Below are positions 48,259-54,649 of a stretch of 64,000 nt of DNA, in pieces. The notes under the pieces were generated by a model. The model saw only the letters and a program-made list of their open reading frames with translations, was not told where the DNA came from and ran no database searches. Within the stretch, counting starts at the first letter, position 1. Each line of letters opens with the position of its first letter. The position numbers and the translations under genes were made by a program. Origin of the DNA: Candidatus Bathyarchaeia archaeon (lineage in GTDB: Archaea; Thermoproteota; Bathyarchaeia; 40CM-2-53-6); the NCBI GenBank assembly GCA_035935655.1, contig DASYWW010000040.1, positions 124,001 through 188,000 on the forward strand, given 5' to 3'.

Positions 48259-48648
48259 CTAACTTTTTCCCTTCTTGAGCTTTCGGGCAAGTTCGAAACG
48301 ATCAGAAGAATAGTTCGGGTAAACGATGTCCATCAATGGGAGTCTTTCCGTTGAGAGGGGAGGAAAGGGCGGAATTCCCTTGATCTTATCACTCTCGGGG
48401 GCGCTTCTGGAGCCGAATCGTCATACGGAACGACCTTGAGGATTCCAGAACTGCTGAGAACCCTGTAGCCCTCCAATCCTTCATGACGCATGAATTTGTG
48501 AAGAAGCAACTTGACATCTCGGCCCCTCTCATCCTCGATCTCAATCTTGTTGCCATCGACCTTGATCCTGCCTGGAATTTTTCGACTGGAGAAACTTGGT
48601 CGCAGCTTCAGCTTCCCCGGGTAGCATTTTCAGCTCTACAAGTACCAT
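48259..48648 (-). pseudogene. Conserved-looking gene broken by two opposite frame changes
   Basis: On the minus strand the ATG at 48648 opens a frame encoding MVLVELKMLPG. After the GGGG run at 48615-48618 the protein-like reading moves to another frame with KLKLRPSFSSRKIPGRIKVD, then DVKLLLHKFMRHEGLEGYRV and SSSGILKVVPYDD. At the CCCCC run near 48395 it returns to the first frame with KIKGIPPFPPLSTERLP and DIVYPNYSSDRFELARKL, stopping at 48259. Removing one G and adding one C would give a continuous protein of about 130 residues. It is either a recent pseudogene or carries homopolymer sequence errors. The fold of the middle part vaguely recalls L22e-type small RNA-binding proteins; not a firm assignment. 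Confidence 0.65.
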
Positions 48649-48773
48649 CTAACTGCCCTAGACAAGTCGTGGCCTATCGTCGCATTTTAGCCTGTTCAAG
48701 AGGCGAGAAGGAGGAGGGCACTGGTAGAACAGCCAAAAGAAGGAATAAATTGTCGCAGTCGGGTCTGGCCAAG

Positions 48774-49994
48774 ATGGGCAAACGGTTGTCGGTGGCGGTT
48801 CAAGGGTTCCACCCTTCAAGCTTCTTGTCCGAAGAGACCGCAAGGCTGCGCGAACTCGCCCAAGACAAGAAAGTCATCTCGGCAGTATCAGGAGGCGTCG
48901 ACAGCACCGTCGCTACACTGGTCGCGAGAGAAGCTCTCGGCGACAAACTCCTACCGATCATGATGGACACAGGCTTTCTCCGGGCTGGGGAACCTGAAAG
49001 TGTCAAAGAAAGATTGGCAAAGTCTCCTACTTCTCTGAAACTGCGATTGATCCATGCTAGCGGTCGATTCCTATCCTCCGTCAAGGGAGAAACAACCGCG
49101 GAAGAAAAGAGGAAAAAGTTCAGAGAGACATTCTACCAAGTTCTCAAAGAAGAAGCCGAGAAAGAAGACTGCGAGTACATTCTTCAGGGGACCATTGCTC
49201 CTGACTGGATTGAGACGCAGGGCGGTATCAAGACCCAACACAATATCCTGGAACAAGTGGGAATAGATCCTTCGACAACCTACGGTTTCAAGATCATCGA
49301 ACCTCTGGCAGACCTCTACAAGGATCAGGTGAGAGCGCTCGGACGCCATCTGAATCTTCCAAGCGAGCTGTCAGAGAGACAGCCGTTCCCTGGTCCAGGG
49401 CTTCTTGTCAGATGCATTGGAAACGTAACTAAGGAAAAGGTTCGAGTGCTTAAAGAGGCAACAAGAATAGTTGAGACAGCGCTAGCTCCCTTCAACTACG
49501 AGCAGTACTTTTCAGCCGTAATCGAGAACAGGTTCGCTAGGGAGCCCTCGACTAAAACACTCTCAGGGGCGGCAGGTGATGCCCTTGGACTTCCAAAGTC
49601 CGAGATCCAGGCCGAGGTTTTTGAAGACCGAGTGACTGGAGTGAAGGGCGACCAAAGATGCTACGGACTACTGGCCGGGGTCAAACTCTCAGAAGAATCC
49701 CGCGAAACCTACGGCTGGCTCCAAGATCGACTTCGACTGCTCCAAGCTGGACTCGTGGAAAGATTTCCGGACGTCACTAGGGTCGCGTTGCTCGTCAAGG
49801 AGCGAAGAGGTGGAGGACCCTTTTCTATGATCGTCAGAGCTGTTTCGACCAGGGACTTCATGACCGCCGCAGTCTCCCCTGCACCGTGGAAAATCCTCAA
49901 AGACATCGCCCAGGAGATCCTGAAAGGAGAAGACGTCAGCCGAGTCTACTACGATATTACGCCCAAACCACCCGGAACCATCGAGTTCGAATAG
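48774..49994 (+). CDS. guaAB: GMP synthase subunit B (ATP pyrophosphatase), long form
   Basis: This subunit adenylates XMP and aminates it with ammonia supplied by subunit A. The PP-loop is VISAVSGGVDSTVATLV. LQGTIAPDWIETQGG and RQPFPGPGLLVRCIG are conserved, and the end ITPKPPGTIEFE is diagnostic. At about 406 residues it is some 100 longer than usual archaeal subunits. The extra residues lie in the dimerisation domain, between GVKGDQRCYG and STRDFMTA, as in eukaryotic GMP synthases. I use the ATG at 48774; a TTG at 48750 is possible. Further upstream sequence is antisense to the broken gene. Confidence 0.93.
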   Translation: MGKRLSVAVQGFHPSSFLSEETARLRELAQDKKVISAVSGGVDSTVATLVAREALGDKLLPIMMDTGFLRAGEPESVKERLAKSPTSLKLRLIHASGRFLSSVKGETTAEEKRKKFRETFYQVLKEEAEKEDCEYILQGTIAPDWIETQGGIKTQHNILEQVGIDPSTTYGFKIIEPLADLYKDQVRALGRHLNLPSELSERQPFPGPGLLVRCIGNVTKEKVRVLKEATRIVETALAPFNYEQYFSAVIENRFAREPSTKTLSGAAGDALGLPKSEIQAEVFEDRVTGVKGDQRCYGLLAGVKLSEESRETYGWLQDRLRLLQAGLVERFPDVTRVALLVKERRGGGPFSMIVRAVSTRDFMTAAVSPAPWKILKDIAQEILKGEDVSRVYYDITPKPPGTIEFE

Positions 49995-49997
49995 CAA

Positions 49998-50588
49998 ATG
50001 ACCACAATACCAGTCGTTTACGTCAAAGGCCAATACAATCATTTGATTGTCCGAAACCTCAAGGAGCTGGGAGTGGAATCCAAGCTACAGCCACCCTCTA
50101 TTCCCCTCGAACAACTCGAAGCGATGCACCCAGACGCGCTCGTTATGGGCGGTGGCCCGCAAAGCGTAAGATCTCCTGATCAGCTCACGGGAGAGTTGGC
50201 CGATGCTGCTCGACTGATAAGACAAGTCAAACTCCCAATGCTGTGCATCTGCGTTACCCACCAGCTACTTGCCACGGCTTTCGGTGGAGTCACTGAAGCT
50301 GCTCGGAAGCCTGAGTTCGGTCCAGTCGAAATCTCGGTATTAGAAGATGGTCGGATTCTCGAGGGATTAGGGCCGCGTTTTACCGCGTGGGAGTCGCACA
50401 ACGACGAAGTGGTGAAGGCCCCCGAGGACTTCCAGGTTATGGCAAGATCGAGCAACTGCGCCGTTGAAGCTATCAGACACAATAGTAGAGACGTCTATGG
50501 AGTCCAGTTCCACCCGGAAGTATCGCACACAACGAAAGGGGTAGACTTGTTCAAGAACTTCCTACAAATCGTCGAAGAGGACAAGTAA
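49998..50588 (+). CDS. guaAA: GMP synthase subunit A (glutamine amidotransferase)
   Basis: This class I glutamine amidotransferase supplies ammonia to subunit B. The 196-residue protein has MGGGPQSVR (oxyanion strand), the nucleophile in PMLCICVTHQLLA (the second Cys takes the usual GxCxGHQ position, with Thr in place of the second Gly), and the His-Glu pair in VQFHPEVSHT. It starts three bases after the stop of subunit B. The order B then A, both on one operon, is typical for archaeal split GMP synthase. Confidence 0.93.
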   Translation: MTTIPVVYVKGQYNHLIVRNLKELGVESKLQPPSIPLEQLEAMHPDALVMGGGPQSVRSPDQLTGELADAARLIRQVKLPMLCICVTHQLLATAFGGVTEAARKPEFGPVEISVLEDGRILEGLGPRFTAWESHNDEVVKAPEDFQVMARSSNCAVEAIRHNSRDVYGVQFHPEVSHTTKGVDLFKNFLQIVEEDK

Positions 50589-50982: not shown

Positions 50983-53784
50983 CTAGGCCCCTGCGCTTCC
51001 AACGGGTCGCGATGAACCGAGTCCCATGTCCACTACTGACTCTCTCTCGATGAGAGATGTTCGGATCTTTTTCGCCAGGTCTTCGGCGTTCGTCGAGAAG
51101 AGAATCGGCCATCCGTCGGGGGCGTTCGCGATTGGGTGAACGATGATTCCTTCATCCTGAATCATCTTCATCTCGTCGGAAGCGTTCTTGAAATTGGACT
51201 CAGGCACCAGTAAATCGGTGACCTTGATCTTCTCAGCCTTCAGAATGCCCACCAGCTTCCCGGCCTCTCTGCCTCTTCCACCGAGCCCGCCTACGGGGCC
51301 AACGTCCATTTTGAGTCCTATCGTTCCGGTCATCACTCTCGACTGTGGGATCGGGATTCCCGACAGTTCTGAGACTAGCGCGTTCAGCATCGCGTAGCCC
51401 GCGCTTGGACCCGACACTCCCTGGCCGGGGGCGCCTTCAAGAATGGATCGTATCTGGAACGCTACGTGGAACCTTGAGAGGTTCGCCCGAGCTTTCAGCC
51501 ACAGCCATGACCTGACGGCCTCGACAGCATTGGTTGCGCTTTGTATCACGGAATCGTCGGGAACGAAGCTCTGTCCGAGCATCATCGAGCTTGCTTGGCC
51601 AGTAACCGACACGTGCCTCTCCCCAGCATTGATGGGTCTGACCGTGCACTGAATAGTCAGGATACCTCCACTTCCCCTATCACTCGTGTAGAGACCATAC
51701 GTGACTCCAGGTATCGCTTGGGAGAGAATCAAGGCCTCCGCGATTTCTCTATGCTCTTTATCTTCCAAGGATTCAAGGCTTGAGATCGCACGCTGGAAGT
51801 GGAAGAGTCGTATCTTGTAGTTGTCTTGGTTCACCTGGTCAGGGGTGAGGGGAGTCCCTTCGTTTTTGTAGATCGCTAGTAACTGGTCGAGCCGGTCGAG
51901 ATCGTCTTGATACCTGAGCGAGATGGCCTGAAGAGAGGTTTCCTTGCCCTTAGCCTGGGCGACCTCTCGAGCCGCAGCAACTTCCGATGCCCACATTCGA
52001 TGAGCCTCAGAGACTGTCTCCGCAGCACCTCTTGGGCTGAGAATTCGCTGTCGCCGGAACATCTTGGTGATCTTTGCGGCGTCGACTTCCGAGTGTAGGT
52101 ATCTGCTGAACTTTCTCAGGTGTATTCCGACGACTTCGTTCCATTCGCTGTCGTTTTGTGGTGGGTGGACGTAGTAGATGTTGGGTTCGAACCTGTCACG
52201 GGTGGCCTGGTCGATCAGTTGTTCTTTGTTTGAGGTTGCGATGACAACAACTCTGTCCTCTGGTCTCAGTTCACTCAGCTCTGCTTTTACTTGGGCGAGG
52301 ATTTTGTTGCTCGAGGGGTCTCCTCCCCAGAAGATTGCGTCCGCTTCGTCCAGCAGCAGTATGCAGGGACTCTTCTGTCGCACCAGTGAAAAGAGATCCT
52401 TGACCCTTTTCTCGGGGTCACCCATGTAGTTCGCCCCGCTCATGAGTTCGCCGCCTCTGACCTTGATGAATCCCACGTTGTTCTCCGCGGCAGCTACCAT
52501 CGCCAGCAGAGTCTTGCCCGTGCCCGGTGGACCCATCAGGAAGAATCGCGGGTTGGACTGGTGTCCCAGCTCGGCCATTGAGGGATTGAAGGCAAGTGCG
52601 ATATGGTTGAGAATCTTGTTCTTGACATCGTGTAGGCCTCCAACATCTTCTCGGTTCACCTTGGGTTTGCTCACGTAAACGGCGTCCGTCACTTCTTGCG
52701 ACTTTTCTTGCTCTGAGTATAGCTTGATGTTTCTTGCCGCCACGACGAAGTCATCAATCTTCACAGATATTTTTGGTCTCTCGATGTTCGCGTAAAGGTT
52801 TCGACTATCTCTGAACTTCTCCCTCAGTGGTGCTTCCTTGGATTTCCTAACCTCACGAAAGATTTCCTGAATGTCGCTAGGCGTGAGTGAGGCTCTCCGT
52901 CTCATAGTAACTTCCCTCTCCATCAAGTCGAGGAGGTCCTCCGCCTTCAGTCCTGTCCATGCTTCTCGTTTTATCGAGTCCTCAACAACGGCAAGAAGCA
53001 TTTCTCGGGTTACTCCATCGTTAAGACTGACCTTGGTCAACCGCCGCCGTATGTCTTCTCGAATTTTCTCATAGGCATTTGTCGCGACGACAACAAGCGT
53101 CCGGGTTTTTCCGCTAACTATCTTGTCGAGCCATCGGTTAAGCTCGTCTTGCAGCCTTGTATCCTCTATTTCCGCACCAGTTTCTCCCCTCACTTTTCTA
53201 CCGAAGCTTTGGAATTCGTCGATGTAGACTACTGACGGGACCGAACTCGCATAGTCCAAGAATCGACCTAGTTGCCGGGTGCTCTTTCCGTAGAACTCTG
53301 AATATACATCTGAGCCTTTCAGAATGACGGGTGTGACTAACACGCCGCTTCGATAGCCCTCCAGAAGCATTTGTCTCAACGCGACCATGGTGAGAAACGT
53401 TTTTCCTGTTCCGCTATCACCGGCGAGGCAGATTGCCTTTGGGAGCTCTTCGCGGCCGAAGTACTTTGCAAGCATCGGATGTCTTAGAACGTGCAGTCTG
53501 AAGGAATCCATTAGAATGTTGAACTCCTTGTCTCGCCCGATGAGGTTTGCTGGCGAAAATTTCTCCGGCGGATACTCTCTGTCTAGGCGCTCTTGAATTT
53601 TCTTGAAACGTCGGGGCGATACCCTGGCCTTGCTCCATCTGGAGTAGGACTTGTCTACCGACTTCAGTGGAATGACGAACAATCGCCTGAACCATGGTTG
53701 TCTGTCCCACCATGGTCTTACGGACCCGAAGAGGAATTCTGACAATTGATCGTCGTTTGACGCGACTCTTCTTTTCGATGCCAC
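50983..53784 (-). CDS. Double AAA+ ATPase fused to a Lon-type (S16) protease domain
   Basis: This protein of about 933 residues has an unusual layout. AAA+ module 1 has Walker A GDSGTGKTF near residue 122 and Walker B SVVYIDEFQSF. Module 2, resembling Cdc48/Vps4 (REDVGGLHDVKNKI), has Walker A GPPGTGKTL near 418 and Walker B CILLLDEADAIF. The C-terminal Lon domain has the nucleophile in GPSAGYAM (Ser about 794). The Lys partner is ambiguous: the usual distance (+43) falls on Arg in GGLGGRGREAGK, with Lys at +49. It is probably an ATP-dependent protease or unfoldase. I favour the GTG at 53784, 7 bases after the membrane-gene stop; an ATG at 53847 overlaps that gene. Confidence 0.88.
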   Translation of the reverse strand: MASKRRVASNDDQLSEFLFGSVRPWWDRQPWFRRLFVIPLKSVDKSYSRWSKARVSPRRFKKIQERLDREYPPEKFSPANLIGRDKEFNILMDSFRLHVLRHPMLAKYFGREELPKAICLAGDSGTGKTFLTMVALRQMLLEGYRSGVLVTPVILKGSDVYSEFYGKSTRQLGRFLDYASSVPSVVYIDEFQSFGRKVRGETGAEIEDTRLQDELNRWLDKIVSGKTRTLVVVATNAYEKIREDIRRRLTKVSLNDGVTREMLLAVVEDSIKREAWTGLKAEDLLDLMEREVTMRRRASLTPSDIQEIFREVRKSKEAPLREKFRDSRNLYANIERPKISVKIDDFVVAARNIKLYSEQEKSQEVTDAVYVSKPKVNREDVGGLHDVKNKILNHIALAFNPSMAELGHQSNPRFFLMGPPGTGKTLLAMVAAAENNVGFIKVRGGELMSGANYMGDPEKRVKDLFSLVRQKSPCILLLDEADAIFWGGDPSSNKILAQVKAELSELRPEDRVVVIATSNKEQLIDQATRDRFEPNIYYVHPPQNDSEWNEVVGIHLRKFSRYLHSEVDAAKITKMFRRQRILSPRGAAETVSEAHRMWASEVAAAREVAQAKGKETSLQAISLRYQDDLDRLDQLLAIYKNEGTPLTPDQVNQDNYKIRLFHFQRAISSLESLEDKEHREIAEALILSQAIPGVTYGLYTSDRGSGGILTIQCTVRPINAGERHVSVTGQASSMMLGQSFVPDDSVIQSATNAVEAVRSWLWLKARANLSRFHVAFQIRSILEGAPGQGVSGPSAGYAMLNALVSELSGIPIPQSRVMTGTIGLKMDVGPVGGLGGRGREAGKLVGILKAEKIKVTDLLVPESNFKNASDEMKMIQDEGIIVHPIANAPDGWPILFSTNAEDLAKKIRTSLIERESVVDMGLGSSRPVGSAGA

Positions 53785-53791
53785 TCTTGGA

Positions 53792-54649
53792 TCAGTCCTC
53801 CATGATGGGTTTGAGGTCGAGGATACGATCGAGGCCTTCCCTTGCAAGATAGACTAATGTTCCCAGGGCTGCAGCGAAGAATATGGAGAAGAAATCAACG
53901 AGTGATATGAGGTTCAAGTTGACAAAGAAGAGATACTGTGCAATTAGGAGAACTAATACCTCGCCGATCATTATTGCCAGACTGATCGCAAAACCTGCGA
54001 TGAGGGCGCGGAAAGCAACCTCAGTCCAAAGATAGATCTTGTTCCCTCTATCCAGCGGAGGCAAATGCCCTTCAATTCTCCTCCGCTCATCTTCGAATTT
54101 TATCCATCGGTACCCAACGAACGCGAATTGTACTCCTAGAATTGAGTAGAGTATTTTTATCCAAAAGGGAAATGCTCCCCCGAACTGTGATACCCAGCCA
54201 TAGAAGGACGACCAACCTAGGGGCGTGCTTGGCCCTGGTGATGGCGCTACTTGGAATGACGCGAAAACGGTAAGGTTGAGATCACCACCCGAGATGAAAT
54301 AGGAGGTGTACTGGGTTTTCGACCCTGAGGACGGGTCGCTGATGAGAATGTTGGTCGTGTAGGGCGCTTGATACGATAACAAGAGGTCGACTGTGTAAAG
54401 CTGGGTCGAATTGGTGGTGAGCGTGAAGTTGCGCGCGGGATACACATTATTCGACAGTTTCGCCGCCGTGAGGTTTCCGCGAATAACTACAGATTTTATC
54501 GAGGGTTGGTTTGAGGTGATGATCAAACTGTTACCGGAATATAGATTCACGTTCTCTATTGGATTCATCGTAGCCGAGTAGACTGGGAGAATGAGCACTG
54601 CGATTGCCATCACAATGAGGACAGCTATCACACCACTCGGTTTTTTCAA
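53792..54649 (-). CDS. Membrane protein paired with the AAA+/Lon gene
   Basis: This 285-residue protein has an N-terminal signal anchor (VIAVLIVMAIAVLILPVYS), an extracellular beta-rich domain of about 130 residues (SLIITSNQPSIKSVVIRG, YTVDLLLSYQAPYTTNILIS), then three transmembrane helices separated by a charged cytoplasmic loop (KFEDERRRIEGHLPPLDRGN). It lies seven bases upstream of the AAA+/Lon gene and is probably co-transcribed, so it may tether or feed the protease at the membrane. No named family. Confidence 0.75.
   Translation of the reverse strand: MKKPSGVIAVLIVMAIAVLILPVYSATMNPIENVNLYSGNSLIITSNQPSIKSVVIRGNLTAAKLSNNVYPARNFTLTTNSTQLYTVDLLLSYQAPYTTNILISDPSSGSKTQYTSYFISGGDLNLTVFASFQVAPSPGPSTPLGWSSFYGWVSQFGGAFPFWIKILYSILGVQFAFVGYRWIKFEDERRRIEGHLPPLDRGNKIYLWTEVAFRALIAGFAISLAIMIGEVLVLLIAQYLFFVNLNLISLVDFFSIFFAAALGTLVYLAREGLDRILDLKPIMED

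Follow-up and report, generated by a model that had tools for sequence, protein, structure and literature searches.

The window, by which we mean the whole 64,000-nucleotide stretch of DNA that was analyzed, carries two consecutive genes on its reverse strand, one for a membrane protein and one for a large AAA-AAA-Lon_C fusion protein. The membrane partner (53792..54649, (-), 285 aa, TTG start) ends in TGA 7 nt upstream of the GTG start of the fusion gene (50983..53784, (-), 933 aa), with the spacer from partner stop to fusion start at 53785..53791 (-). When the spacer region was read, GGAGG was found 12 nt ahead of the fusion GTG. The ORF at 50983-53847 (-) is open end to end and longer than the gene we assigned; because fusion homologs start at about residue 19–22 of this listed ORF (53847 start), translation probably begins at the GTG at 53784. 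The open frame and the 7 nt distance agree with the coordinates in the first-pass annotation of this DNA. The dN/dS of the fusion was 0.016 relative to its nearest relative (L004), and that of the partner was 0.049 relative to its own, three times the value for the fusion. The two genes are a real, selected pair, and chance adjacency was ruled out by these ratios and by the pairing across genomes. At 48483-50588, GMP synthase appeared by eye to be split between two neighboring genes, one for the ATPase part and one for the glutaminase part, which is the usual arrangement in archaea.

ATPase modules. Pfam placed two AAA stretches in the fusion protein (E 6.5e-45) ahead of the Lon domain, and both contained complete Walker motifs, as the first-pass annotation had claimed. 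In AAA1, these were Walker A GDSGTGKT (residues 122-129, 53398..53421, (-)), with K128 invariant in 46/46 aligned members, and the Walker B DE (residues 189-190, 53215..53220, (-)), also invariant in all 46. AAA2 had Walker A GPPGTGKT (residues 418-425, 52510..52533, (-); K424 invariant, 46/46) and a Walker B DE at residues 479-480 (52345..52350, (-); 46/46). The aligned members are deeply diverged, and all 46 retained the AAA1 RRR (Arg246-248) and the AAA2 residues Asn519 and Arg531. Aromatic or hydrophobic pore-loop motifs were also kept in the 46 members. The AAA1 pore-loop motif FYG (residues 164-166, 53287..53295, (-)) had Y165 and G166 invariant in 46/46, while relatives read WYG, LYG, or YYG, so that F, W, L, or Y preceded the invariant YG. 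A conserved PWW region lies at the fusion N-terminus ahead of AAA1. Both AAA domains were closest to VAT/Cdc48 among PDB sequence matches, and the nearest NCBIfam model to the AAA part was Cdc48 (TIGR01243). A Walker A pattern scan of the genome contigs returned Cdc48-like loci only. A defense role was rejected, since the PADLOC matches were to AAA domains only. No TM segment was found in the window's fusion protein.

Lon domain. The Lon (S16) proteolytic domain occupies approximately residues 691-908 (51061..51714, (-)) as judged from Pfam Lon_C, an AF2 model, and Foldseek. Lon_C (PF05362) scored 45.5 bits against a cut-off of 21.1 (E 8.5e-12), so a domain search recovered two AAA domains and Lon_C above cut-off. 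In NCBIfam, the Lon part weakly resembled several Lon models, all far under their cut-offs, and among PDB matches the C-terminus grouped with Lon P domains. In the AF2 model (pTM 0.81), this part took the form of a Lon P domain, and among those listed, the Foldseek hits to the model were all Lon structures (best E 1.9e-13, probability 1.00). The alignment behind the model was built from Lon P domains of bacterial type encoded on viral contigs, gathered with a 111-aa E. coli Lon query; the model speaks to the fold and cannot say which residue is catalytic, because its alignment already sets Arg837 in the Lys column. Viral contigs scanned with the Lon part of the fusion yielded no match.

Active site. 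Active-site counts refer to the 45 of 46 aligned members that reach the C-terminus. The catalytic serine motif GPSAG (51394..51408, (-)) has Ser794 at 51403-51405 in 45/45 sequences, and Pro793 just before it was equally invariant. The altered dyad segment GGLGGRGREAGK (residues 832-843, 51256..51291, (-)) contains R837 and K843, both present in 45/45. The first-pass annotation had described a Gly/Arg-rich insertion here with Arg at the usual Lys spacing, which was accurate: Ser794-Arg837 spanned 43 residues in all 35 sequences measured, equal to the E. coli Ser679-Lys722 spacing. The invariant Lys lies 4 residues beyond the Arg, or 6 in the window's family (Lys843). Thus, 42 residues lie between Ser and Arg in the fusion family and 46-48 between Ser and Lys. 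Lon proteases are said to hold exactly 42 residues between Ser and Lys (PMC9569914). At the position of GGVTQKIEAAI in A. fulgidus LonB, type-B members have GGLDYRGMGKIEAAL, and because this Lys context matches that of A. fulgidus LonB (KIEAA), we somewhat prefer the reading in which 4-6 residues were inserted ahead of the true catalytic Lys to one with a Ser-Arg dyad. The invariant Lys past the Gly/Arg insertion may then be the catalytic Lys, and the Arg need not be a replacement.

Activity could also be lost or altered, since the Lys follows a 4-6 residue insertion and Arg holds its spacing. In the stronger form of this idea, the Lon domain has lost its protease function and the pair is a membrane-tethered, double-ring unfoldase/segregase resembling Cdc48, with the Lon fold serving oligomerization or docking. 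The exact placement of Arg837 at the usual Lys spacing beside an insertion, the Cdc48/VAT identity of the best AAA matches, and the existence of S16 homologs without peptidase function (PMC9569914) are all consistent with it. However, Ser794 and Lys843 are invariant in 45/45 members across families that share 26-38% identity, and the type-B Lys is followed by IEAA as in the A. fulgidus LonB KIEAA, so the Lys may be merely displaced. We consider loss of protease function unlikely, and retain a proteolytic Lon domain with a modified site as the preferred reading.

Membrane partner. TM prediction placed segments in the partner at about 5-23, 160-178, 216-234, and 248-266. The predicted topology was an N-terminal signal/TM, followed by ~130 residues outside as a beta-rich domain and, at the C-terminal end, three TM helices with a basic loop among them; the short acidic tail was placed inside by the positive-inside rule. 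This bore out the earlier description of a protein encoded seven bases upstream with an extracytoplasmic beta domain and three C-terminal helices. The partner matched no Pfam family, and its single-sequence AF2 model was poor (pLDDT 53). The topology signature was present in 49/56 partners versus 4/189 other ORFs of the same loci and 0/65 in the window, and since the rule was drawn up with the partners already known, these counts gauge how unusual the topology is and are not an independent prediction. Partner form varied by family. Family f2 partners had three TMs only, without an ectodomain, and type-B partners had two C-terminal TMs. No sequence homology was detected between type-B and type-A partners, which had topology and position alone in common, while f1 partners had a moderate link to type A (E 1.3e-4, probability 54%).

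Distribution. The fusion was present in 18/20 other genomes of the window's family (some copies were split over contigs), 37/201 genomes of the class, and 43/398 genomes of the phylum, the last representing 20/163 genera. Families within the fusion group differed widely, at the 26-38% identity given above. Outside the phylum it was rare, with 1/101 genomes in the class of Nitrosopumilus and 2/119 in the phylum of Sifarchaeum. Neither the 24 diverse named archaea searched nor the 126 genomes from the phylum of a Thermoplasmatota MAG contained it. The first-pass annotation had raised the concern that the fusion was an assembly join of two genes, and the recurrence of the same open frame in the family and phylum genomes answers it. 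For the same reason, we assign almost no probability to the explanation that a known archaeal LonB or a plain Cdc48 was seen through misassembly or a misread frame. The resemblance of AAA2 to Cdc48 and the wide occurrence of Lon_C would speak for such an error, but LonB has one AAA with TMs inside it (L240; PMC9569914) and the window's fusion has no TM.

Conservation of the pairing. A partner adjoined the fusion at every locus with enough flank. The partner was upstream at 20/20 distant loci and at 16/20 loci in other classes, with the remaining 4 adjacent and divergently transcribed. Those 4 and three more loci make up family f32 (L217, L218, L220, L221, L234, L235, L236), in which the partner is inverted and divergent, 45-105 bp from the fusion. 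The f32 arrangement is a natural rearrangement that kept the linkage. The genome-neighborhood comparison suggested by the first-pass annotation therefore found a conserved two-gene pair. The only loci without an automatic partner call were L008 and L012, which lie at contig ends, and L237 (G255), where the fusion frame is split in two, perhaps through assembly error, and the partner is still upstream. The type-A partner profile matched 21/398 phylum genomes, exactly the carriers of the type-A or f1 fusion, and 0/377 others; this profile search of the 398 phylum genomes recovered no orphan partners. In family f30 (L207, L212-L216), a multi-TM protein of ~555-590 aa that looks like a cation/proton antiporter directly follows the fusion.

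Natural anchor-protease fusion. Two small genomes from the phylum of Sifarchaeum (Asgard MAG), G550 (L232 4150-7188, 1012 aa) and G560 (L233, partial), had the TM half of the partner fused ahead of AAA1. The Asgard fused frame encodes three TM helices that match the partner C-terminal half through its IDE tail, followed by PWW and AAA1. Comparison of the fused TM part to the partner with hhalign gave E 9.4e-9 and a probability of 95.7%, versus E 0.14 or worse for unrelated controls. This natural fusion would place AAA1 next to the membrane, and together with the conserved pairing it supports the earlier proposal that a separate protein supplies the anchor. In the phylogenetic tree, the f1, type-A, and type-B clades coincided with partner types, and the Asgard fused form was sister to f2, with its minimal three-TM partner (support 99/95). 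Because the fused forms are sister to the ectodomain-less f2, the order of events suggests that the ectodomain was lost first and the genes fused later. The extracytoplasmic domain is dispensable, being absent from f2 and from the Asgard fused form.

These same genomes bear on whether the double-AAA Lon is soluble and has the partner as its dedicated substrate or regulated client, not as its anchor. Adjacent membrane proteins can be clients, and the partner evolves faster, with the threefold higher dN/dS noted above. Direct joining of the TM part to the protease in the two Asgard-phylum genomes argues against this, as do the retention of the TM core in f2 after ectodomain loss and the lack of orphan partners in the profile search. 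A client role for the partner thus seems quite improbable to us, and we continue with the partner as a putative anchor.

Relation to LonB. We looked for LonB in the window's own genome, a check that the first-pass annotation had proposed, and it was absent. The other Lon of this genome (L238 2279-4723, contig C13; also L002) is a soluble protein of 814 aa with AAA_32, a LonB AAA-lid, and Lon_C. Its solubility, AAA_32 type, and lack of TM segments led us to reject L002/L238 as LonB. LonB-like proteins, exemplified by L240 (741 aa, with two TMs within the AAA), were present in 28/398 phylum genomes; all 28 score below the TIGR00764 cut-off and are called LonB-like on the strength of their build and score. 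The overlap between the 43 genomes with the fusion and the 28 with LonB-like proteins was 0 in 398, with a chance of 0.036 when relatedness is ignored. Since the pattern is confounded by phylogeny, mutual exclusion of the fusion pair and LonB is suggestive only.

Proposed function. Taking these observations together, we think it quite likely that the two genes together encode a membrane-tethered Lon protease with a double AAA+ ring, which takes on the role of LonB. We infer that the fusion protein would form a hexamer in which two AAA+ rings stack over a proteolytic Lon chamber. The partner may form a complex with the fusion N-terminus at the PWW region through its TM helices, cytosolic loop, and acidic tail, which would set the AAA1 pore beside the membrane. 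Proteins within the membrane or at its inner face would be extracted as substrates, threaded from AAA1 to AAA2, and cut in the Lon chamber. By analogy with LonB and FtsH, such extraction and threading into the Lon chamber are likely, and the partner would serve as a tether and perhaps also as a sensor. Where present, the extracytoplasmic domain probably senses or holds substrates. The pair would then do the work of LonB in other archaea and of FtsH in bacteria, and could have replaced LonB in its hosts. It is rather likely that this is an undescribed membrane-protease subfamily with a double-ring AAA+ Lon, a separate anchor subunit, and a modified Ser-(Arg)-Lys site, one that would be ancient in Thermoproteota-like archaea, also present in some Asgard-phylum genomes, and a replacement for LonB. 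How archaea without FtsH and LonB control the quality of their membrane proteins is poorly understood, and the pair offers a candidate machine for many of these lineages, among them some of the Asgard phylum. If this is true, the double AAA+ ring and the anchor supplied in trans would both be firsts among Lon proteases, neither having been found in the literature searched, and the pair would test how a Lon active site works with Lys displaced and Arg in its place.

Comparison with known systems. Architectures described in the literature include LonA, LonB, LonBA, and LonC, along with those in older surveys (PMC2605481, PMC9569914, PMC9263693). In line with the earlier impression that the architecture was undescribed, the open-access literature searched contained no two-AAA plus Lon_C protein and no anchor in trans; subscription papers and database entries may yet contain one. 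Like the fusion pair, LonB (MEROPS S16, TIGR00764) is archaeal and membrane-linked, and combines AAA+ with a Lon P domain. However, archaeal LonB has a single AAA+ with inserted TMs and Asp before the catalytic Ser (PMC9569914), whereas the fusion has two AAA+ modules, no TM, Pro before Ser, and its anchor in trans, and scored 29.6 bits against the LonB model, where the cut-off is 516.6. The fusion shares the A-type P-domain signature GPSAG with LonA and LonBA, Pro precedes Ser in LonA, and LonBA is further alike in that its membrane segment is N-terminal (PMC9569914). Unlike the fusion, LonA and LonBA have one AAA+ module and exactly 42 intervening residues from Ser to Lys (PMC9569914). The fusion also differs from LonA in having no N-terminal LON domain, two AAA, and GPSAG without the PKD of the LonA PKDGPSA. 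Cdc48/VAT/p97 (TIGR01243) has two tandem AAA+ modules like the fusion and is the best match for both, but the fusion has an appended Lon protease domain and the invariant YG pore motif in AAA1, and scored 149.1 bits versus a cut-off of 802.65. FtsH and the mitochondrial i-/m-AAA proteases have an N-terminal membrane tether, an AAA ring at the membrane, and a distal protease. They are zinc metalloproteases with a single AAA ring whose protease part is not homologous to the fusion, which matched the FtsH model in the AAA only (94 bits, cut-off 600). The proposed pair, known from sequence, would nonetheless be alike in plan to FtsH and the i- and m-AAA proteases.
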